NCBI GenBank assembly: GCA_017990495.1
Contig: JAGNNV010000011.1
Span: forward strand, 1 to 36,567
DNA: 36,567 nucleotides
Source of the DNA: Vicinamibacteria bacterium
Lineage (GTDB): Bacteria > Acidobacteriota > Vicinamibacteria > Fen-336 > JAGNNV01
Direction of reading: 5' to 3'
Shown: positions 3,237 to 26,551 of the stretch, piece after piece
How the letters are laid out: each line of letters begins with the position of its first letter
How positions within the stretch are numbered: the stretch's first letter is position 1
The notes under the pieces: model-generated
Databases searched by the model: none
Told to the model about the DNA's origin: nothing
The model's input: only the letters and a program-made list of their open reading frames with translations
Position numbers and translations under genes: made by a program

Positions 3237-3498
3237 GGCCTAATTCTGCCCTGTCGCGAGCCATCGCGGGATCAAGTGAGTACAGTGCGAGCTTTCGCCC
3301 AAGTCTCTGAGCCGGCGAGTGACCGCGCAGGCTGGAGGACGTAAGGTGCGGGGGTTTGGGCGAGAACGGACCAAAGGCGCTTTTCAGGTCGTCCGGTCGC
3401 AGACCAGCCGCAGTTCATCAGCATCGTTGGACCGGCGAGGTCCTGGTGCCCCACGACCGTGTCACCGACATCTGCGGCCACCGTATGCATTCCGGGAA

Positions 3499-3535
3499 AG
3501 CAACTGGGAGTTCCCCCTACCCCAGCAACTGGGAG
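3499..3535. repeat. 12-bp direct repeat at the phosphoesterase 3' end
   Basis: AGCAACTGGGAG occurs at 3499-3510 and again, identically, at 3524-3535, a 25-base period. The second copy encodes the last codons of the phosphoesterase and the first lies just past its stop. This fits a small slippage duplication of the gene's tail. Confidence 0.6.
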
Positions 3536-4538
3536 CCGCTGTCGGCGAGCTTCAGGCGTCCCGCGGCCGTCTGGGTTTCGGGCGCGGTCCAGTACTCCCA
3601 TGAGTACCCCCTGGCGGTCAGGCGGAATCGTCCAACTCCGAACTCGGTCACCCGGCCGTCTGCGGACGCGTGACGGTACTCGCTCATTGAGCGGATGTCC
3701 GCGCTCTTGAACTCATACAGGGCGCCGCCGCCCGTGCCGATGATGAAGGACCGGAAGCCGGCAGTTTCGCGCATCCGCTCGTAGCCGTGCTCATGGCCAT
3801 GAAGGGTGAAGCCCCGCCGCCGCAAACGATGGACCTCATCCAGAAAGGTCTGGCTCGGCGGCCAATCGCCGTTGCGACTCGAGCCCCATCGGGGGCGGTG
3901 CCAGACCAGAACCACAAACCGGTCAGGGTGGAGCGTGAGCTGATCTCTCAGAAACTGAATCTGGCGCGTGTCGGCGGGGATCTCGCTGTTTAGGACAACG
4001 ACGAGCCAGGCCTCCTCCAGATAGCTGTAGTAGCCGTCTCTGCCGTTGCCGGTCGCCGCTGCGCCGAAGTATTCGTAGTAATAGGGCGCAACGCGCCGGG
4101 CATTAGCGTCGTCCAGTTCGTGATTCCCGAGCGAAGGCTCGATGATGGCCTTGAACTGACCATAAAAGGGCGCGAAACACTGTTCAATGCGGTTTTGCTG
4201 CCGCCCAAGCCGTCTGGAACTTGGTAAGCGTGATCGCCCAGCGTATGAAGCCATGTGGGACGGGAACCAGCGGGGGTCTCCGAAAGAAGGGCAGTGATTA
4301 TCTTCGCGCTCGTTTCTGCTCCGCCCGTCCCACAGTCTCCGATGTCTCCAACAGCGAGAATGCCGAAGCCGGAGGCGGGGGGACTTGCGGGCGTGGGCGA
4401 GGGGCTCGGGCCGATCGGAGAGTTTGCGTCGGATGGTCCGCAGGCCACGCCTGTCGCAAGGAGCGCAGCGGTCTGGACGAAGGTCCGACGACTGACTTGT
4501 ACTGCGGGCGGGCGGGACGGGGGAGGAGGCGACTTCAT
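3517..4538 (-). pseudogene. Tat-exported metallophosphoesterase, interrupted by a frameshift
   Basis: Two adjoining reading frames together encode one calcineurin-like phosphoesterase. The first frame, from ATG 4538, has a twin-arginine signal (SRRTFVQTAALLATGVAC, possibly lipidated at the Cys), then motif I in AVGDIGDC and motif II in LGDHAY. The second frame continues with FYGQFKAIIEPSLGNHEL (motif III GNHE), VWHRP (motif IV) and GHEHGYERM (motif V), ending at 3517. The switch falls at an A run (minus strand AGCAAAACCGC; run at 4193-4196). One extra A would join the frames as S-K-N-R-I-E-Q. So one base is missing, either a real mutation or an assembly error. Its ATG overlaps the ATPase stop (ATGA), so it belongs to that operon. 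Confidence 0.8.
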
Positions 4539-6709
4539 TCGGCTTTCGACCGGAGGAGACGCAGGCCGTTCCCGACCACCAGCAGCGATGCGCCCATGTC
4601 GGCGGCGATGGCGGCCCAGAGCGACGCATGCCCCATGACGGTCAGCACGACGAACGTGGCTTTGACCAGCAAGGAGAACGCGATGTTCTGCCGGACGATG
4701 GCAAGGGTCCGGCGCGAGTGCTCGATCAGCCAGGGAAGCCGCGAGAGGTCGTCGGACATGAGTGCCACATCGGCTGTCTCGATCGCCGAGTCGCTCCCTG
4801 CGGCGCCCATGGCAATGCCGAGGCTGGCCCGGCCCAGCGCGGGCGCGTCGTTGACCCCGTCGCCGACCATGCCCACGGTCCCGTACTTCGCCAGCAGCCG
4901 CTCGATGGCCCCGACCTTGTCTTCGGGCAACAACTCAGCCGCGATCTCGTCCACACCGGTCTGGCTTGCGATGTTCTCGGCCGTGCCCCGGTTGTCGCCG
5001 GTGAGCATGACGACGTGCTCGATGCCCGCGGAGCGCAGGCGGGCGACCATCGCCTTCGACTCGAGTCGCACCTCGTCGCCGAGACCGATCAGGCCGCAAA
5101 CGTGCTTGTTGTCTCCGACGAGAACCACCGTACGGCCCTTGCCGGCCATGGCTTCGAGTTCCCGATGCACCTTGAGAGTTTCCAGGCCGCGTTCCTCCAG
5201 ATAGCGGTGAGAGCCGAGCCAGTACAGCTCAGTCCCGAACATGGCGGTGGCGCCCTTGCCTTGCACAATCTTGAAGTCGGTCGCGGGATTAACGGCGATC
5301 CCTTGCCTCTTGGCATAGGCGACGATCGCGCGCGCCAGCGGATGATCGCTACGAGCTTCCATGGCCGCAACCCGCTCCAGCAGGCGCGACTCGCCATGAT
5401 CATCCCAGGACACGACTTCGACGACCGCCGGCTCACCTCGCGTGAGCGTGCCTGTCTTGTCGAGTGCGAGGGCCTTGAGGCGCCCCGCCATCTCCAGGTG
5501 GGCGCCGCCCTTCACAAGCACCCCGTTCCGAGCCGCGGCGGCAAGACCGGCCACGATCGTGACCGGCGTCGAGATCACGAGCGCGCAGGGGCAGCCGATA
5601 ACGAGCAGCACGAGTGCTCGGTAGATCCAGTCTGACCAAACGCCGCCGAAGAACAACGGCGGGACTACGAGAACCGCGACCGCCAGGGCCAGCACCACCG
5701 GCGTGTAGATGCGCGCGAACTTCTCGACCCATCGCTCGGAAGGGGCCCGCTTCGACTGCGCGTCGCCGACCATGCGGATGATGTTGGCGAGTGTGGTGTT
5801 GCCCGCGACCTTGGTGGCCTGCGCTTCGATCGCGCCGTCGCCGTTGATCGTGCCGGCATAGACCACCGAGCCCGGCACCTTGGAGACGGGCATGCTCTCG
5901 CCCGTGATCGGAGCCTGGTTGATGTCGCTCTCGCCCTTGGTCACCGTGCCGTCGAGCGGCACACGCTCACCCGGCCACACCACAAAGGTCGCGCCGATCG
6001 TCGCCTCTTCGGCCCGCACCTCACGCTCGCTCCCGTCGGGGAGGCGCAAGCGCACGGTCAAAGGAGCCAGCTCCATCAGCTTGGCAACGGCGCGCCGCGC
6101 GCGCCCCACGCTCCAGGACTCGAGCGCCAGCGAAACCGCGAACAGGAACGAGACCGTGGCCGCCTCGAACCACTCGCCGATTCCGACCGCGCCGGCGACG
6201 GCGATCGTCATCAGGACGTTCATGTCCGGACGTCCGTGGCGCGCGGCGAACCAAGCCTTCGGGACCACGTATCGTATACCTGCCGCGATCGAGACCGTGT
6301 ACAGGAGTGCTGCTACCGCAGGCACGCCCTCCGAGATGCCCATTCCCTCAGATCCCAGGGCTCCCAAGACGCTGCCGGCGCGCCAAGCGTGATACCCAAA
6401 GCCGAGTCCCAGCGCGAGCCCGCTTATCGCGGTGAGCAGCGTGCGGCCCCGCTGCTGCGAGCCTTCGTCCGGCGCGCCGTCGGCCGTGACGTCTGTCCAG
6501 GGCTCCGCAGTCATGCCCGTGGCGCGCACCGCCGCGATGATGGCCGTCTGGTCCGAAGCGCCGCTGCCCGGAGTGATGATCATCCGGCCGTTCAACACGT
6601 CGAACGCCAGATCGCCACCCTGCCCGACCAGGGAGCCGAGGGTCTCCCGCAGCGCTCCGACCTCCTCGGCACAGTCCATGCCACGAACCCGGAAGCGCAG
6701 AGTGGTCAT
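4535..6709 (-). CDS. cadA: P1B-type heavy-metal ATPase (Zn/Cd/Pb class)
   Basis: An inner-membrane pump of about 724 residues that uses ATP to move divalent soft metals from cytoplasm to periplasm. It has an N-terminal HMA-like domain whose motif is GMDCAEE (one Cys, C12, not CxxC), the actuator TGES (269-272), the membrane CPC (373-375), the phosphorylated Asp in DKTGTLT (D417), an HP dipeptide near 456 and GDGVND (616-621). K683 in the seventh and D704 in the eighth membrane helix are hallmarks of the P1B-2 (Zn/Cd/Pb) class. I start at ATG 6709 because GGAGGAG lies six bases upstream. A GTG at 6727 would add six residues. It overlaps or abuts the PII-like gene upstream and the phosphoesterase downstream. 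The substrate is inferred from class residues. Confidence 0.94.
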   Translation of the reverse strand: MTTLRFRVRGMDCAEEVGALRETLGSLVGQGGDLAFDVLNGRMIITPGSGASDQTAIIAAVRATGMTAEPWTDVTADGAPDEGSQQRGRTLLTAISGLALGLGFGYHAWRAGSVLGALGSEGMGISEGVPAVAALLYTVSIAAGIRYVVPKAWFAARHGRPDMNVLMTIAVAGAVGIGEWFEAATVSFLFAVSLALESWSVGRARRAVAKLMELAPLTVRLRLPDGSEREVRAEEATIGATFVVWPGERVPLDGTVTKGESDINQAPITGESMPVSKVPGSVVYAGTINGDGAIEAQATKVAGNTTLANIIRMVGDAQSKRAPSERWVEKFARIYTPVVLALAVAVLVVPPLFFGGVWSDWIYRALVLLVIGCPCALVISTPVTIVAGLAAAARNGVLVKGGAHLEMAGRLKALALDKTGTLTRGEPAVVEVVSWDDHGESRLLERVAAMEARSDHPLARAIVAYAKRQGIAVNPATDFKIVQGKGATAMFGTELYWLGSHRYLEERGLETLKVHRELEAMAGKGRTVVLVGDNKHVCGLIGLGDEVRLESKAMVARLRSAGIEHVVMLTGDNRGTAENIASQTGVDEIAAELLPEDKVGAIERLLAKYGTVGMVGDGVNDAPALGRASLGIAMGAAGSDSAIETADVALMSDDLSRLPWLIEHSRRTLAIVRQNIAFSLLVKATFVVLTVMGHASLWAAIAADMGASLLVVGNGLRLLRSKAE

Positions 6710-15750: not shown

Positions 15751-16074
15751 CTAAGCGCGGAGGAGCGGAGGGTGGAAGATCGAGACGGAAACGCCGTCGA
15801 GTGGAGACTCGGGCGCCTGCTCGGTGGGATTCGTGATGCGCCCGAGATTCGTCATCACACTAGGGCGATTCGATTCAGCGCCAATGCAGCAGCAGAAGCA
15901 GTCAGGCACGCAGATGGTGGAGCAGGACTCACCGGTTGAATTGGCGCTGACAACCTCGATATCGGATGCCATTGCAATGCGCTGGTCGCATAACGCGTCA
16001 GCGGCAAGGTCTTGCCCGATGCACAGGAGCAGGACCACCGCCAAGAGGCGAAATGCAACCGAAAAGCGAGACAT
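15751..16074 (-). CDS. Small exported Cys-rich protein ahead of czcCBA
   Basis: A 107-residue protein with a hydrophobic export segment (FSVAFRLLAVVLLLCIG). The mature part has a compact cysteine cluster, CSTICVPDCFCCC, likely to bind soft metal, and ends in the hydrophobic/basic tail IFHPPLLRA. Small exported proteins of this sort often precede czc/cus channel genes and are thought to sense or buffer periplasmic metal, but I cannot name the family. I start at ATG 16074, in front of the signal sequence. An in-frame ATG at 16116 would add 14 residues before it. It follows the methyltransferase after 60 bases, which may hold a secondary promoter. Confidence 0.7.
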   Translation of the reverse strand: MSRFSVAFRLLAVVLLLCIGQDLAADALCDQRIAMASDIEVVSANSTGESCSTICVPDCFCCCIGAESNRPSVMTNLGRITNPTEQAPESPLDGVSVSIFHPPLLRA

Positions 16075-16134
16075 CGCCCCAAAGTGTAGCCCATTGGGAC
16101 AGAAACGAGGAGACATTTCTTCGTCAGCCCGCAG

Positions 16135-18965: not shown

Positions 18966-19244
18966 GTGCTGAATGAGACTTTCGTACCTGACGAACGCAA
19001 AGCGGAGCTGCGAAGTCGGCTGGGACGCATTCAGGGTGAGGTGTCGGGCGTTGGACGCATGTTGGACGAGAACAAGCCAAGCATGGACATTCTCACGCCG
19101 GCTGCTCAAGAGGCATTGCGCGGCTTCAGCCGGATCATGGTCCTGAACTACCTGGAGAAGCGCGCAACTGCTGCCGTGAGAGAGGGGCGACAGGACGACG
19201 TTTACGAGGATCTAATGAGGGTGATTTTCAGGCTGGCTCGATGA
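18966..19244 (+). CDS. CsoR/FrmR-family repressor paralogue without metal-ligand cysteines (copy A)
   Basis: A 92-residue all-helical protein of the DUF156 (CsoR/RcnR/FrmR) family, very like the protein at 22597: both have PDERKAELR, GRML, ALRGFSR and VLNYLEK in the same order. At the ligand positions it has Ser 39 where copy B has Cys (PSMD against PCMD) and Arg 66 where copy B has Cys (EKRAT against EKCAT). Two residues are missing in helix 2 between DIL and AAQEAL. With neither Cys it should not sense copper or thiols in the usual way. The GTG start is chosen by alignment with copy B and has no clear ribosome site. Either a decaying duplicate or a ligand-blind partner subunit. Confidence 0.75.
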   Translation: MLNETFVPDERKAELRSRLGRIQGEVSGVGRMLDENKPSMDILTPAAQEALRGFSRIMVLNYLEKRATAAVREGRQDDVYEDLMRVIFRLAR

Positions 19245-19264
19245 GCCACACGAGATAGAGCGAA

Positions 19265-19550
19265 ATGGAACGCAGAATGACACTCAAGGCCCTGGCGATG
19301 GTCGGATTCACTGGACTACTCGGCGGAACGGTGTTCGCCGGCGGACAAGACACGCCGCCTTGCTGCCAGAAGAAGGAGCAACCCGCCAACAAGGCGAAAG
19401 CCACGCCGTCCACGAAGATGCGCTGCACGCTGACCGGGGAGGTTGTCGACAGGTGCTGCTGTGAACAGCAAGACTTACTGCCCACTCGCTGGCAAGGCCG
19501 TGGAAAAGTGTTGCTGTGAGCCGGTCGCGGATGAGCCCGCCAAGAAGTAG
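19265..19550 (+). pseudogene. Frameshifted copy of the CCCE-repeat Cys-rich exported protein (copy A)
   Basis: The first frame encodes MERRMTLKALAMVGFTGLLG, DTPPCCQKKEQP and MRCTLTGEVVDRCCCEQ, closely matching the intact protein at 22904. It then reads out of frame and stops at 19519. The other frame, from about 19464, gives KTYCPLAGKAVEKCCCEPVADEPAKK and stops at 19550, matching the rest of the intact copy. Comparison shows about 8 bases missing after the CCCEQ codons. The second CCCE repeat is therefore lost. It follows copy A of the repressor by 20 bases, the same order as in the intact pair. Confidence 0.85.
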
Positions 19551-19598: not shown

Positions 19599-20084
19599 CT
19601 ACAGGCCCGGTTCGACTTTAGCTCGCGTGAATTCTGCGACGAGTGCTGTCACCAACGAGCCGATGTTGCCCAAGCAACAACTGCCTTGGGGGTTCTTGAT
19701 CTCGCACGCGCAGCGGCCGGCCTTGACGTGTTCGGTTACGCGGCCTGACGCCGTGGATCGGCCGGTCTCCTGGATCTCGCGGCGCAGATCAGCCTCGCCG
19801 ATCTGAAAGCAGTAGCAGGCGGTGCGGTCGACGCCGGTCTGCTTTTGAAAAACGGAGACGGCGATGGCGTCAACTTCGAAGGCTTCGCTGTCGGCAAAAT
19901 AGACAACCGGGCATGAGGCGGTGGGACAGAAGCGGTGACCATGCGCGGACAGGGTCGCGAGAGCCGCGGGTCGAAGGAGCGCCTTCACCGTCATGGCATC
20001 GATTCTTCTTCCTGGCTGGGCGCACTTCGGGCAGCGGAGTGGCCCTGGGGTGGGTTGAGCTTCGGCAAGGCAGCAATCGGCCAC
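19599..20084 (-). CDS. CopZ-like iron-sulfur metallochaperone
   Basis: A 161-residue Cys-rich cytoplasmic protein resembling the N-terminal [2Fe-2S] and zinc-binding half of the Archaeoglobus copper chaperone CopZ. Cysteines occur as CPKC (18-21), FCPTASCPVVYF (C53, C58), CYCFQIG (C90, C92), CAC (C125, C127) and SCCLGNI (C136, C137). The last pairs sit in a BFD-like helical fold. There is no C-terminal HMA domain. The GTG start at 20084 lies two bases after the merP stop, so it is the last gene of the mer-type operon. Inference: it accepts metal delivered by MerT/MerP in the cytoplasm, perhaps coupling it to redox chemistry. Confidence 0.8.
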   Translation of the reverse strand: MADCCLAEAQPTPGPLRCPKCAQPGRRIDAMTVKALLRPAALATLSAHGHRFCPTASCPVVYFADSEAFEVDAIAVSVFQKQTGVDRTACYCFQIGEADLRREIQETGRSTASGRVTEHVKAGRCACEIKNPQGSCCLGNIGSLVTALVAEFTRAKVEPGL

Positions 20085-20086
20085 AA

Positions 20087-20392
20087 CTACTTCGCTTTCG
20101 GGCCGTCGGCGGTGGTCTTCACTGAGGCCTCGAACCCGGTCTTCGAAACAGACTCCGCGATCTTCTTCGGCTCGGTCTTCGAAGGATCGTAGGTCACAAT
20201 GGCCTCGGCCTTTTCGTAGCTGACCTCAAATGTCTCGACGCCCTCCGTTCGCTTGAGCTGAATCTTCACCGCTCCGACGCATCCGCCGCAGGTCATGCCC
20301 TTGATGGCCAGCGTGGTTTGCGCCGTGGTCGCGGCCTGCACGAGGGTGCCGAGCAGGAGCGCCGCAATGGTCATTAATGAGAGCTTTTTCAT
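20087..20392 (-). CDS. merP: MerP-like periplasmic metal-binding protein
   Basis: A 101-residue protein with a cleavable signal (MKKLSLMTIAALLLGTLVQA) and one HMA domain whose loop is GMTCGGC (C35, C38), the site used by MerP to bind Hg(II) and by related proteins to bind Cu(I). The rest follows the ferredoxin-like pattern: VKIQLKRTEGVETFEVSY, AIVTYDP and IAESVSKTGFEA. The start at ATG 20392 has GAGGAG nine bases upstream. The frame runs open upstream of it, but that overlaps merT. It begins 13 bases after merT. Mercury is favoured by the MerT and MerR neighbours. Confidence 0.88.
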   Translation of the reverse strand: MKKLSLMTIAALLLGTLVQAATTAQTTLAIKGMTCGGCVGAVKIQLKRTEGVETFEVSYEKAEAIVTYDPSKTEPKKIAESVSKTGFEASVKTTADGPKAK

Positions 20393-20405
20393 GGGGTTGA
20401 ACTCC

Positions 20406-20744
20406 TCAGAACAGATAGATCGAGTAGACGGGGAACGTGGTGGTGAGCAGGACAAAGAGCGTGGCCACCCACAAGGCGGCTTTGGCCGCACGATTGGCCG
20501 CGGGGATTTCACACGCCTCGCCCGGCCCGCATTCCGGCTGGGCGGGCCGGTAGGTCGAGTAGAAGGCTGCGGCGAGGAGAGCGTACGTCGCCAACAGAAG
20601 ATACGGACGGAGCGGCTCCAGGCGCTGGGCGGCGGCAGCGCCGGCGATTCCGAGCGTCGCGAAGACGAGGGGGCCGATGCAGCAGGCCGAGGACAGGATC
20701 CCCAGGGCAACTGACCCGAGGAGGGGCACGCGGGGTCTTTTCAT
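20406..20744 (-). CDS. merT: MerT-like mercuric ion transporter
   Basis: A 112-residue inner-membrane protein with three hydrophobic segments (about 8-38, 47-64 and 88-110). The first carries the paired cysteines SSACCIGP (C21, C22) that receive Hg(II) from MerP. A second pair, C72 and C78, lies in the loop ECGPGEAC, as in MerT. It moves metal into the cytoplasm. Its ATG overlaps the merR stop (ATGA). No mercuric reductase gene is visible in the window, so the cytoplasmic fate of the ion is unclear. Confidence 0.88.
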   Translation of the reverse strand: MKRPRVPLLGSVALGILSSACCIGPLVFATLGIAGAAAAQRLEPLRPYLLLATYALLAAAFYSTYRPAQPECGPGEACEIPAANRAAKAALWVATLFVLLTTTFPVYSIYLF

Positions 20745-21163
20745 CGGGTCCCTTTCTCCATTCCGGAGCCTTCGGCGAAACTCAAGACCACGGGGCAGGA
20801 ATCAGCGCCTTCAGCGCACAGCGCAAGCCCCTTCGCGAGTTCGCGGCGGAACGCGCTCAACTCACCAATCTTTTGATCGATGATTTCGATTCGACTTCGA
20901 AGGCGCTCGGCCACACGACGGCAGGCGCCGGGTGTCCGCAAGCGCTGGACGCGCAGAAGTTCGCGAATGTCGTCGAGGCTCAGGCCCACCCCCTGTGCGC
21001 GCCGAATGAACAGGACGCGCTGAGCGTCGGGCTCCCCATAGAGCCGGTAGCCCGCATCCGAACGCTGGGGCAGAGAGATCAGTCCCTCGCGTTCGTAGAA
21101 GCGCAGCGTGTCGCGCGAAACCCCGCACCGCCTTGCCAGATCACCGATTCTCAAGAGCGCCAT
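20741..21163 (-). CDS. merR: MerR-family metal-responsive regulator
   Basis: A 140-residue activator: winged helix (LRIGDLARRCGVSRDTLRFYE, then GYRLYG), a dimerisation helix, and a metal loop. C81 aligns with the MerR Cys used for divalent thiophilic metals (CueR has Ser there). C116 and C123 (LCAEGADSCP) flank the loop, which has only six residues between them. MerR has eight and CueR seven, so the metal cannot be fixed from the loop length. The ATG at 21163 is favoured because an earlier in-frame ATG (21175) lies at the -10 box. It is the first gene of merR-merT-merP-copZ and a MerR-type promoter lies directly upstream. Confidence 0.85.
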   Translation of the reverse strand: MALLRIGDLARRCGVSRDTLRFYEREGLISLPQRSDAGYRLYGEPDAQRVLFIRRAQGVGLSLDDIRELLRVQRLRTPGACRRVAERLRSRIEIIDQKIGELSAFRRELAKGLALCAEGADSCPVVLSFAEGSGMEKGTR

Positions 21164-21176
21164 CCATCGACCCATA

Positions 21177-22526: not shown

Positions 22527-22556
22527 TTGACCTCAATATACCCCTGGGGGTATGGT
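22527..22556 (+). promoter_or_regulatory. Promoter with perfect CsoR-type operator
   Basis: TTGACC (-35, 22527-22532), an 18-base spacer and TATGGT (-10, 22551-22556). The spacer and -10 contain ATACCCCTGGGGGTAT (22538-22553), a perfect 16-bp palindrome with the ATACCCC/GGGGTAT arms known for CsoR-family operators. A bound repressor would block the polymerase, so the repressor should control its own operon. Copy A at 18966 has no such site upstream. Confidence 0.85.
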
Positions 22557-22596
22557 CGGCTCCGTGTTCCCCAAGCGAAAAACGATCCCGCTGCGG

Positions 22597-22881
22597 TTGC
22601 TAACCGAGACGTATGTCCCTGATGAACGAAAAGCCGAACTCAGGAAACGGCTGAAGCGGGCGCAGGGCCAGGTGAGCGGGATCGGCCGCATGCTCGATGA
22701 CAACCGACCTTGCATGGACATTCTGGTCCAGGTCACGGCGGCGCAAGAGGCGCTCCGCGGATTCAGTCGCGTGATGGTCCTCAACTACCTGGAGAAGTGC
22801 GCCACGGACGCCGTCAAGGAGGGGAGGCAGGAGGACGTTTACGACGACCTGATGAAAGTGATTTTCAAGCTGGCTCGATGA
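22597..22881 (+). CDS. csoR: CsoR/FrmR-family repressor with C-Y-C ligand set (copy B)
   Basis: A protein of about 94 residues in the DUF156 family: ELRKRLKRAQGQVSGIGRML, PCMDILVQVTAAQEALRG, VLNYLEKCATDAV and a C-terminal YDDLMKVIFKLAR. Counting from a TTG start at 22597, C39 and C68 match the two Cys ligands of CsoR (C36, C65), but the His position (H61 in CsoR) is Y64. The first ATG (22552) lies inside the -10 box and cannot start the mRNA made from that promoter, so I place the start at TTG 22597, aligned with the GTG of copy A. A GTG at 22564 is possible. It should repress itself and the Cys-rich gene through the operator at 22538. Copper is suggested by context. The missing His leaves a thiol or persulfide signal open. 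Confidence 0.85.
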   Translation: MLTETYVPDERKAELRKRLKRAQGQVSGIGRMLDDNRPCMDILVQVTAAQEALRGFSRVMVLNYLEKCATDAVKEGRQEDVYDDLMKVIFKLAR

Positions 22882-22903: not shown

Positions 22904-23203
22904 ATGGAGAGACGAACAATGTTCAAGGCCCTGGTCGCGGTGGGCGTCACCGGGCTTTGGGGGGCCGGAACCTTCGCTCTGGACAAGAAGGACACGCCGC
23001 CTTGTTGCCAGAAGAAGGATAAACCGCAGGCGGGCGCGGCCAAGGAAAAGCCCGGCACGAAGATGCGGTGCACACTGACCGGCAAGATTGTCGACGAGTG
23101 TTGCTGCGAGCAACGGGAGGGCAAGACCTACTGCCCGCTCGCGGCCAAGAACGTCGAGGCTTGTTGTTGCGAGCCGGTGGTGGCCGAGGCCGCGAAGAAG
23201 TAG
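22904..23203 (+). CDS. Small exported protein with two C-x9-CCCE repeats, putative metal binder
   Basis: A 99-residue protein with 10 cysteines. Residues 4-25 form an export signal (basic RR, then FKALVAVGVTGLWGAGTFA). The mature chain has PPCCQKK (C34, C35), a Lys-rich linker, and two related units 21 residues apart: CTLTGKIVDECCCE (56-69) and CPLAAKNVEACCCE (77-90). The consensus is C-x-L-x-x-K-x-V-(D/E)-x-CCCE. I do not recognise the family. The spacing differs from TRASH/YHS and from HMA motifs. It lies 22 bases after the repressor under a CsoR-type operator, so copper or another soft metal is the likely ligand, in the periplasm. A frameshifted relative lies at 19265. Confidence 0.85.
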   Translation: MERRTMFKALVAVGVTGLWGAGTFALDKKDTPPCCQKKDKPQAGAAKEKPGTKMRCTLTGKIVDECCCEQREGKTYCPLAAKNVEACCCEPVVAEAAKK

Positions 23204-23209
23204 CGCACA

Positions 23210-23243
23210 ACTGGCTCCGTAATACCGGCCTTACGGAGCCAGT
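23210..23243 (+). terminator. Perfect 13-bp hairpin after the Cys-rich gene
   Basis: ACTGGCTCCGTAA pairs fully with TTACGGAGCCAGT around an 8-base loop, seven bases after the stop codon. No T run follows, so it may be a processing or partial-termination structure that lowers expression of the genes downstream, rather than a full intrinsic terminator. The remaining bases up to 23397 show no gene. Confidence 0.6.
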
Positions 23244-23397
23244 CCAACACCAGGCATGAGGAGCGCAAAGACCGCCGCGCCTTTCGCGCGGAGATGGGCC
23301 GGCTCGGTCAAGGAATGAAGGCCATCGCCCGACGACTCAACGGTGGGGCGCACAGGTTCTAACGCGCGCCTAATGTTTGGTCCCTAGAGTCCGGTGG

Positions 23398-23775
23398 ATG
23401 AGACCGATTCCCACAATGCTCGTCCTCGTTCTCGCCCAGTTCGCCGCCACAGGTTGCGCGAGCGTGCCCACGCCTGCGACAAAGGCGCCGGACAGCCCGG
23501 CGAGCGCTACGGCCGCCGAAGGCCGGTTGCAGAAGCTCGAATTGTTCGATCTGGTGCAGGCGCCGAGCGCCCCGCCGCCGCAGCCATCCCCGGCAATGAC
23601 CGGGATGGACCATTCGAAGATGGATCATTCCGCGCCAGAGGCGAAGCCCGTCGCGTCGGACCCGTCTTCTGAGACATATACCTGCGTGATGCATGCGCAG
23701 ATCCAGCAGCCCAAACCCGGCAAATGTCCGATCTGCGGAATGGCGCTCGAAAAGAAGGCAAAGGAGAAGAAGTGA
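23398..23775 (+). CDS. Lipoprotein with C-terminal heavy-metal-binding domain
   Basis: A 125-residue lipoprotein (lipobox ATGC, Cys 20). After a Pro/Ala-rich linker comes the Met/His stretch MTGMDHSKMDHS (67-78), typical of copper-handling proteins, then an HMBD-type domain YTCVMHAQIQQPKPGKCPIC followed by GMALEKK, with C96, C110 and C113. In standard domains the start is YTCPMHP; here it is YTCVMHA. The same type of domain occurs at the N-terminus of CusB (30083). The ATG 23398 precedes the signal sequence directly. Its stop overlaps the GTG of the next gene. Likely a periplasmic copper-binding partner of the channel protein. Confidence 0.82.
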   Translation: MRPIPTMLVLVLAQFAATGCASVPTPATKAPDSPASATAAEGRLQKLELFDLVQAPSAPPPQPSPAMTGMDHSKMDHSAPEAKPVASDPSSETYTCVMHAQIQQPKPGKCPICGMALEKKAKEKK

Positions 23776-25196
23776 AACCACTCTTCCACCTTGCGGTGCT
23801 TCTGAGCGCAGCCGGCGTGACGGGCTGCGCCACCGTCGATCCTGGCGCCGCATTCGTCGACATCTCGGGCAAGGTCCGCGACAGATCCGGCGAGGATGCG
23901 CAGTTCATGAGGTCTCCCGGCGATGCCCAGGAAATTGAGCGCATCGTTCGTGGCATTCTCAAGGACGAACTGACCGCGGATTCGGCGGCGCGGATTGCGC
24001 TCGTCAACAACCGCGACGTTCAGGCCACGCTGCAAGACCTGGGCCTTGCTCAGGCCGACCTCGCTCAGGCAAGCCGCCTCTCAAACCCCGATCTCCACGG
24101 GTTCCTCAGGTCCCCGAACCGGGAACCAGGAGGGAAGAACTACGAGATCTCCCTGGTCCAGGACTTTCTGAATATTCTGGTCCAGCCCTTGCGCAAGAAG
24201 TTCGCGGCCGCCGAGCTCGAAGTCACCAAGCTGCGAGTCGGACACGAACTCATGCGCACGATGGCGGACACCAAGGTCGCGTTCTTCACCCTGGCTGGGC
24301 GCGAGCAACTGGCGACGCGTCTCGCCCTGATTCTCGATATTGAGCAGACCGCGGTCGCGTTTGCCCGGAGGCAGAGCGCCGCGGGAAACATCAACGACCT
24401 GCAACTGCTCAACCACGAAGCGGCGGCCACCGAAGCCGCCATGGCGTTGGCGCTCACCCGCATCGACGCGCGGCGCGACCGAGAGCGGCTGAATCGCTTG
24501 ATGGGCCTGTGGGGCACGGACCTCGAATGGAAGATCGCCACCGGCCTCCCCCCGCTGCCGGAGCGGGAGACCGGGGTCGAGCAACTAGAGTCTTTCGCCA
24601 TTTCCAATCGGCTCGATATCGATGCGGCGCGGTGGGGCGTCGAAACCGTGGGCCGGGCGCTTGCCCTCAAACAGAAGACCCGTTACTTCCCCGTAGGCAT
24701 CGAAGTGGGTGTCCAGCACGAAAAAGACACCGACGGACAGCGTGTGACCGGTCCGTCTCTCGGCCTGCAACTCCCCCTCTTCGACACCGGAAAGGCTTCA
24801 ATCGCCCGGCTCAAAGCTGAATACGAGCGCTCTCAAAGACAACTGGAGGGCCTCGCCATCAACACCCGCTCCGAGGTGCGAGAAGCCCGGGACGTCATGA
24901 TGGCCGCCCGTGAGGTAAAGGAGCGCTACGAAACCGTCCTGTTGCCGCAACGAGTGCGAATCCTCGAAGAGACAACACTTCACTACAACATGATGCTGAA
25001 GGGCGCCTATGACCTGCTTCTGGCCAAGCAGGGAGAGGTTTCGGCCGAACGGGGCTATGTGGAGTCGTGGCGCGACTATTGGATCGCGCGGACCGAACTG
25101 GAGCGGGCGGTGGGCGGCCGACTACCAGGAGCGCTCGCCGACCGCGGCAACAAAGAAACCCCTCAAAGCCTGCCCGAAGGAGAAACTGTTCGATGA
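23772..25196 (+). CDS. TolC-family outer-membrane lipoprotein
   Basis: A 474-residue channel-type protein with a lipobox (AAGVTGC, Cys 19). Coiled-coil helices and barrel strands follow the TolC pattern: ALVNNRDVQATLQDLGLAQA, SNPDLHGFLR, then the second repeat with LGLQLPLFDTGKASIARLKAE and LHYNMMLKGAYDLLLAKQ. I start at GTG 23772, which overlaps the previous stop (GTGA) and has AAGGAG upstream. It has no adaptor or pump gene of its own; instead it is coupled (ATGA) to a multicopper oxidase gene. Such TolC-oxidase pairs are common in copper clusters, with the channel role unproven. Confidence 0.88.
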   Translation: MKPLFHLAVLLSAAGVTGCATVDPGAAFVDISGKVRDRSGEDAQFMRSPGDAQEIERIVRGILKDELTADSAARIALVNNRDVQATLQDLGLAQADLAQASRLSNPDLHGFLRSPNREPGGKNYEISLVQDFLNILVQPLRKKFAAAELEVTKLRVGHELMRTMADTKVAFFTLAGREQLATRLALILDIEQTAVAFARRQSAAGNINDLQLLNHEAAATEAAMALALTRIDARRDRERLNRLMGLWGTDLEWKIATGLPPLPERETGVEQLESFAISNRLDIDAARWGVETVGRALALKQKTRYFPVGIEVGVQHEKDTDGQRVTGPSLGLQLPLFDTGKASIARLKAEYERSQRQLEGLAINTRSEVREARDVMMAAREVKERYETVLLPQRVRILEETTLHYNMMLKGAYDLLLAKQGEVSAERGYVESWRDYWIARTELERAVGGRLPGALADRGNKETPQSLPEGETVR

Positions 25197-26551
25197 TAAG
25201 CCGCCGGAAGTACCTCTCGCAGGCCGCGCTGCTCGCGGGCGGAGCCGCCCTCACCGGCAGCGCCCGAGCGATGACACGAGTCGAAGGCGAGGGGCAACAC
25301 GAAGGTCACGCCATGGCGACGCCGGCCGCGGCCAGGGCCAAAGCGCCATCGAAACCAGCGATCTCTCGCAAGGGCCTTCCCTATACCCCGGTGGTCACGC
25401 CCGATGGGTCGACGTTGCCCTTCGTCATGAAGGATGGAGTGAAGGAGTTCCATCTGATCGCGGAACCCGTAAAGCGCGAGTTCGCGCCGGGCATGATGGT
25501 GAACTCCTGGGGCTACAACGGCTCCACGCCGGGGCCCACGATCGAGGCGGTCGAGGGCGATCGGGTCAGGATTCTGGTTACGAACAAGCTGCCCGAACAC
25601 ACAAGCGTCCATTGGCATGGAATCTTTCTGCCGAATGGGATGGATGGCGTCGGCGGGCTTAATCAGCCGCACATCAAGCCGGGCGAGACCTTCACCTACG
25701 AGTTCACCCTTCGCCAGCACGGTACCCACATGTATCACCCGCACGCCGATGAAGTTGTTCAGATGGCCCTGGGAATGATGGGTTTTTTCATCATTCACCC
25801 CCGGGTGCCGGCCCGCGTCGTCCATCGCGATTTCTGCATTCTTCCCCACATGTGGTTCATCGACCCGGGGACCATGACTCCGAATCCGAACATCATGCTC
25901 GACTTCAACATGTTCACATTCAACAGCCGGAGTTTCCCGGGGACCGCCCCGCTGATCTGCAGGCTCGGGGATCGGGTGCGCGTGCGGCTCGCGAACTTGA
26001 ACATGACGAGCCACCCAATTCACATTCACGGAGTAAGGGTCTGGGTGGTCGAGACGGACGGCGGGCAGATTCCGGAGACCGCGTGGTGGCCGGAAACGAC
26101 GGTGAACGTCATCCCGGGCACCACGCGCGCCTTCGAATTCGTCGCGGATGTGCCGGGAGACTGGGCCTTCCACTGCCACAAGCCCCACCACGCGATGAAC
26201 GCGATGGGCCACGACATCCCAAACGTCCTTGGCGTGGACCAATCAGGTGTGGAAGAGAAGATCCGCGCATTGGTTCCCGGCTACATGGCGATGGGCAAGG
26301 ACGGCATGGCCGAGCACGCGCAACACGCGGAACATATGAAGGGCCTGCCGAACACTCTGCCCATGATGACCGGCACCGGCCCTTTCGGTCCGATTGAAAT
26401 GGGCGGCATGTTCACGGTCGTGAAGGTTCGCGAGAACCTCAAGAACTACGACGAGGATCCCGGCTGGTATCAATACCCGGAAGGTACCGTAGCCTTCAAA
26501 TCGGGCGAGGCGGCCGCTAAGTCTCCCGACGAGAAAGGATCGCGCCCATGA
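25193..26551 (+). CDS. Tat-exported multicopper oxidase
   Basis: A 452-residue periplasmic copper oxidase. The signal is twin-arginine (ISRRKYLSQAALLAGG). The copper ligands are all present: HWHG (140-143), HPH (182-184), HPIHIHG (274-280) and the type-1 segment HCHKPHHAMNAM (327-338), with the T1 Cys at 328. Such enzymes oxidise Cu(I) to the less toxic Cu(II) using O2. A Met/His-rich part follows (HAEHMKGLPN, PMMTG, IEMGGM) near 380-425, which probably binds substrate copper. The ATG overlaps the TolC stop (ATGA). An upstream extension of the frame is not needed. It is followed by a c-type cytochrome gene, again in ATGA overlap. Confidence 0.93.
   Translation: MISRRKYLSQAALLAGGAALTGSARAMTRVEGEGQHEGHAMATPAAARAKAPSKPAISRKGLPYTPVVTPDGSTLPFVMKDGVKEFHLIAEPVKREFAPGMMVNSWGYNGSTPGPTIEAVEGDRVRILVTNKLPEHTSVHWHGIFLPNGMDGVGGLNQPHIKPGETFTYEFTLRQHGTHMYHPHADEVVQMALGMMGFFIIHPRVPARVVHRDFCILPHMWFIDPGTMTPNPNIMLDFNMFTFNSRSFPGTAPLICRLGDRVRVRLANLNMTSHPIHIHGVRVWVVETDGGQIPETAWWPETTVNVIPGTTRAFEFVADVPGDWAFHCHKPHHAMNAMGHDIPNVLGVDQSGVEEKIRALVPGYMAMGKDGMAEHAQHAEHMKGLPNTLPMMTGTGPFGPIEMGGMFTVVKVRENLKNYDEDPGWYQYPEGTVAFKSGEAAAKSPDEKGSRP

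Follow-up and report, generated by a model that had tools for sequence, protein, structure and literature searches.

A putative csoR-ccc operon encoding a CsoR-type repressor and a cysteine-rich CCC-repeat protein in Acidobacteriota

In Mycobacterium, the CsoR-family repressor RicR regulates the small cysteine-rich binder MymT, and regulons of this type carry a palindromic operator with G/C tracts at the promoter. The bacterial metallothioneins (SmtA, MymT) are likewise small and cysteine-rich, and to our knowledge the known ones have neither an export signal nor CCC repeats. Csp1 is an exported cysteine-rich metal store that forms a four-helix bundle, and short cysteine units also occur in the HMBD and YHS/TRASH domains of metal-resistance proteins. 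MymT has been described, and Csp1 is known to carry a Tat signal (PMC7558416). Most operators of the CsoR family are pseudo-palindromes that include a tract of four or more G or C (PMC10318464), and a sensory fingerprint of DUF156, the family of these repressors, has been described (PMC5016687).

Here we analyzed a stretch of 36,567 nucleotides from a Vicinamibacteria bacterium (the window), in which a csoR-type gene is followed by a gene for a protein with repeated CCC units (the CCC protein). In outline, small thiolate metal binders under a repressor of the CsoR family are already known; what is new here is the CCC architecture, the predicted export and the Cys-Tyr-Cys sensor. Compared with the RicR/MymT type, the putative binder in the window has a signal-like N-terminus and CCC repeats that match no profile, and sensor position Y of the repressor is Tyr instead of His. 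The CCC protein resembles the metallothioneins as a small, cysteine-rich and likely holder of several thiophilic ions, but does not match their profiles in Pfam or NCBIfam. With its predicted export it also resembles Csp1, whereas its core is predicted, from a two-row alignment, to be all-beta and has no Pfam match. If it is such a store, exported thiolate proteins for metals would come in two designs, that of Csp1 and this one.

The csoR-ccc operon of the window and its product

The operon comprises the following features.

22527 to 22556, + strand: sigma-70-like promoter TTGACC-N18-TATGGT (promoter scan; chance expectation 0.1, from shuffles of this region)
22538 to 22553, no strand assigned: candidate CsoR-type palindromic operator ATACCCCTGGGGGTAT, situated between the promoter boxes and overlapping them (chance expectation 0.07 at up to 3 mismatches)
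22552 to 22881, + strand: CsoR/DUF156-family repressor (PF02583, E = 8.8e-22), with Cys-Tyr-Cys at the sensor positions
22904 to 23203, + strand: CCC-repeat protein of 99 residues, with a signal-like N-terminus (MERRTMFKALVAVGVTGLWGAGTFA), a CCQKK pair and C-x9-CCC units at residues 56-69 and 77-90
23210 to 23243, + strand: 13-bp hairpin 3' of the CCC gene, without a U-tract (z = -2.76)

The repressor scored 77.7 bits against PF02583 (gathering cut-off 22.8), and its gene ends 22 bases before the ATG of the CCC gene. The position of the CCC gene between a CsoR-like repressor and a hairpin, as described in an earlier note on this DNA, was thus confirmed, and the hairpin, judged by itself and lacking a U-tract, is the probable end of the operon. 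No Rfam elements were found within the window. The ATG of csoR at 22552 overlaps the -10 box; the true start therefore probably lies downstream, at GTG 22564 or at a TTG near 22600.

When the assembled genome (4.2 Mb, about 76% complete) was searched with ATACCNNNGGGGGTAT, the operator in the window was the only exact match. Because it carries this sole exact copy, the csoR-ccc operon is the likeliest main target of its repressor, as the earlier note had supposed for the CCC gene.

Translation of 22904-23203 yielded 10 Cys (residues 34, 35, 56, 66-68, 77 and 87-89), and the pattern C.L..K.V[DE].CCCE had exactly two matches, at residues 56 and 77; the earlier account of a 99-residue protein with 10 Cys and two units (14 residues each) spaced 21 residues apart was correct in coordinates and sequence. 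The mean Cys content of the larger open reading frames of the window is about 0.9%. Two CCC runs arose in 162 of 200,000 shuffles of the protein's own residues. Further, for all three members of the family described below, unit 1 aligned with unit 2 better than in any of 2,000 shuffles.

By eye, the protein begins with RR-x-M-F-K and a hydrophobic stretch, and its relative in genome G026 has a Sec-like start. A signal-like N-terminus is present in both complete members of the family, and export by Tat or Sec is predicted. In an oxidising periplasm, the multiple Cys (8-10) could instead form disulfides.

The CCC protein had no match in Pfam up to E 10 or in a PDB sequence search, and none in NCBIfam up to E 1 (E 10 for its relatives), in agreement with the earlier suggestion that it belongs to no known family. 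Since no family model covers it, annotation pipelines will call it hypothetical. A run of the form CxLTGKxV...EGKxY is superficially similar to HMBD and YHS/TRASH domains; kinship with either was rejected at an hhalign probability of about 0.1% each and with no Pfam match.

Structure prediction had been proposed as a check. The full-length model was poor (mean pLDDT 57), whereas the 44-residue core alone, modeled from a two-sequence alignment with no metal included, formed a compact all-strand structure, in which six short strands make up two units that resemble each other (pLDDT 87.6). Comparison of the core model with the PDB yielded no significant match; the hits, at E 4 or worse, included rubredoxin and zinc-ribbon shapes.

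Relatives of the CCC gene and of the csoR-ccc pair

A whole-genome search detected relatives of the CCC protein in G208 (core identity 60%; contig of Acidobacteria bacterium PMV_2.74) and in G026 (49%). The three genomes belong to three different classes of Acidobacteriota; core identity among them is 42-60%, and every Cys of the C/CCC/C/CCC frame is kept. This frame reads C-x9-CCC-x8-C-x9-CCC, with all eight Cys invariant, within the invariant core C-x-L-T-x(3)-V-x(2)-CCC-x(2)-R-x-G-x(2)-YC-x(2)-A-x-K-x-V-x(2)-CCC. The homologues in G208 and G026 have the frame intact and adjoin metal-efflux genes. Two details of the earlier description did not carry over to the family: the Glu of the supposed CCCE unit varies, leaving CCC as the conserved part, and the N-terminal Cys pair (CCQKK in the window) varies as well.

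The window harbors a second, decayed pair, 3.6 kb upstream of the intact one (copy 1, 18966-19550).

18966 to 19244, + strand: paralogous csoR of copy 1; frame open, sensor Cys changed to Ser and Arg, two codons deleted, operator lost
19265 to 19550, + strand: paralogous CCC gene of copy 1, disrupted by the loss of 8 bases between unit 1 and unit 2

The earlier note had overlooked this pair, as well as the operator and the His-to-Tyr change in the repressor of the intact pair. Between the copies dS exceeds 1, and dN/dS is about 0.10 for csoR and about 0.18 for the stretch of the CCC gene that precedes the break. Decay that struck the CCC frame, the operator and the sensor Cys jointly would fit parts that work together. 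The csoR of copy 1 has lost both sensor Cys, yet its frame is open and its dN/dS low; its product might have been retained to bind DNA without sensing metal, or the gene might simply be decaying. Given the relatives in two other genomes of Acidobacteriota and this decayed pair, sequence comparison indicates that the CCC genes are a real family.

Profile searches detected no further members in 193 genomes of the window's class or in 396 genomes spread over Acidobacteriota, and the gene is absent from two other genomes of the same genus as the window. Such a rare and patchy occurrence is what would be expected if genes are easily moved or lost. A degenerate-peptide scan of genome contigs for members outside Acidobacteriota matched PMV_2.74 only, and pattern scans of plasmids, phages and viral contigs matched nothing; because the scan patterns were short and fairly strict, distant members may be missed. 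Weak matches (E 1e-3 to 1e-2) were rejected as chance, as they had no CCC units and disappeared in the profile search.

The pair itself recurs in G026 as an operon of reversed order (ccc-csoR) with abutting frames. Its promoter, TTGACA-N17-TATATT, is followed directly by ATACCATAGGGGGGTAT, which precedes the ribosome-binding site. A promoter and a G/C-tract operator thus precede both operons, and both operators, ATACCCCTGGGGGTAT and ATACCATAGGGGGGTAT, follow the G/C-run rule (PMC10318464). Further, the partner repressors of the window and G026 form one clade (support 98/97) apart from the other csoR products of the phylum. The notion of a repressor-plus-binder module gains from both the recurrence of the pair and the supported clade. 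Among 30 csoR-like loci of Acidobacteriota, none apart from those of the window and G026 had a CCC neighbor within 1.5 kb; since csoR genes in this phylum mostly occur without an adjoining CCC gene, the module is rare. The CCC locus of G208 is cut at a contig edge and the family comprises three genomes, so that the link to csoR rests on two independent loci and a paralogue.

Metal-gene neighborhoods and the signal of the repressor

Downstream of the intact pair, on the same strand, lie a CusA-like pump and the following genes.

23377 to 23775, + strand: lipoprotein-like protein with an HMBD domain (PF19335, E = 1.4e-12), the next gene beyond the hairpin
23724 to 25196, + strand: outer-membrane efflux protein, cusC type (PF02321)
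25067 to 26551, + strand: multicopper oxidase (profile searches)

In total, the metal genes of the window encode a P1B-ATPase, two RND systems, the multicopper oxidase, the HMBD lipoprotein and proteins of the MerR, MerT, MerP and CopZ types. The last four form a compact cluster on the - strand (19599-21175: MerR-type regulator, MerT-like, MerP/HMA and zf_CopZ-type) between the two csoR-ccc copies. The CCC loci of G026 and G208 contain cusCBA-type operons, and RND metal-efflux genes lie near the CCC gene in all three loci.

Alignment placed Cys at positions X and Z of the window repressor and Tyr at Y, the position of the His ligand in Cu(I)-CsoR; His occupies Y in all five aligned solved chains of the CsoR family. 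The repressor thus departs from the Cys-His-Cys pattern of Cu(I)-CsoR. Other Cys-Tyr-Cys repressors of the phylum adjoin merA, ZntA-like and CopA-like genes; among these repressors, that of G131 lies beside a heavy-metal P-type ATPase gene and that of G060 beside a ZntA-like ATPase gene. Mercury operons are usually under MerR or ArsR-type control; in G120 a Cys-Tyr-Cys repressor heads a mercury-type row, in which MerA scored 532.7 bits, above its curated cut-off.

L062 (G120:C43:29500-41500), 3415 to 6279, - strand: csoR-merT-HMA-merA row

Because the window repressor does not have the Cu(I)-CsoR His, and because repressors with the same fingerprint lie beside merA, ZntA-like and CopA-like genes, copper is only one option. 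The best reading of the signal would be a thiophilic metal, namely Cu(I), Ag(I) or Hg(II). Of the earlier proposal of a copper or soft-metal binder, the soft-metal part is favored by the metal-efflux islands, whereas copper as such is weakened by the Tyr and by the merA and ZntA-like neighbors elsewhere.

We consider it fairly probable (roughly 0.6) that the CCC protein is exported and, being rich in thiolates, buffers soft metals under the control of a sensor transcribed together with it, whichever of these metals is bound. In this scheme, the CsoR-family protein would repress csoR-ccc at the G/C-tract operator over the promoter, as the sequence of the region supports. A thiophilic ion would bind the two sensor Cys and free the repressor from DNA, and the CCC protein would then be made and exported by Tat or Sec. 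Its eight invariant Cys, which a small beta fold would present in two C-x9-CCC units, may hold the ion as a metal-thiolate center or cluster, and the ion might be sequestered or passed to the neighboring RND efflux system. That the protein represents a new class of exported metal-thiolate protein, with a beta-scaffold cluster unlike those of metallothioneins and Csps and with a His-free, two-thiolate Cys-Tyr-Cys sensor for thiophilic ions, we propose only tentatively.

A narrower form of the soft-metal buffer, the probability of which overlaps with that of the general one, is specific to copper: CsoR would sense Cu(I), and the CCC protein would act either as a copper metallothionein of the periplasm or as a chaperone that serves the multicopper oxidase or CusBA. 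The multicopper oxidase, HMBD lipoprotein and CusA-like pump downstream on the same strand point to copper, as does a GAMVDAA motif, which we take to mark a CusA-type pump, in the RND pump adjoining the CCC gene of G026. However, the other RND pump of the window and the pump of G208 have the motif DFG-x-x-VDG, presumably that of a CzcA-type pump, and the cluster between the two csoR copies is of the MerR-MerT-MerP-CopZ type. With Tyr at the place of the Cu(I)-binding His, the copper-specific form is possible but somewhat doubtful.

The same cluster of mer-like genes, together with the mercury row of G120, would suit a sensor whose two Cys bind Hg(II) and a CCC protein that scavenges mercury. 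However, the window MerR-type regulator scores under both the MerR and the ZntR cut-offs, and the stretches read at G026 and G208 contain RND efflux genes but no mer genes; a mercury-specific role is thus unlikely.

A sulfur signal also had to be considered, because the persulfide sensor CstR is likewise a dithiol repressor (PMC9405070), and the window repressor has two Cys and no His ligand. Control of sulfur genes by a CsoR-family protein is known (PMC10318464), and clustered Cys are able to carry disulfides or persulfides. The repressor might accordingly sense persulfide or oxidative stress, with the CCC protein as a thiol/disulfide or sulfane-sulfur buffer. However, none of the CCC loci contained a recognisable gene for rhodanese, sulfide oxidase or another sulfur function, metal efflux adjoins all three, and other Cys-Tyr-Cys repressors lie beside merA and P1B-ATPase genes, which makes this explanation quite improbable. 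The partner repressors are natural variants of CsoR with Tyr for the copper-binding His, and they therefore allow a direct test of how ligand set relates to effector in the DUF156 family.

Finally, in each of the three RND operons the gene immediately upstream of cusC encodes a small Cys-containing and probably exported protein.

Window, 15751 to 16116, - strand: small Cys protein upstream of cusC
L017, 6747 to 7139, - strand: small Cys protein upstream of cusC
L016, 1484 to 1834, + strand: small Cys protein upstream of cusC

None of these proteins had a convincing match in Pfam or NCBIfam, and those of the window and G208 share the motif C-x3-C-[IV]-P-D-C-F-C-C.
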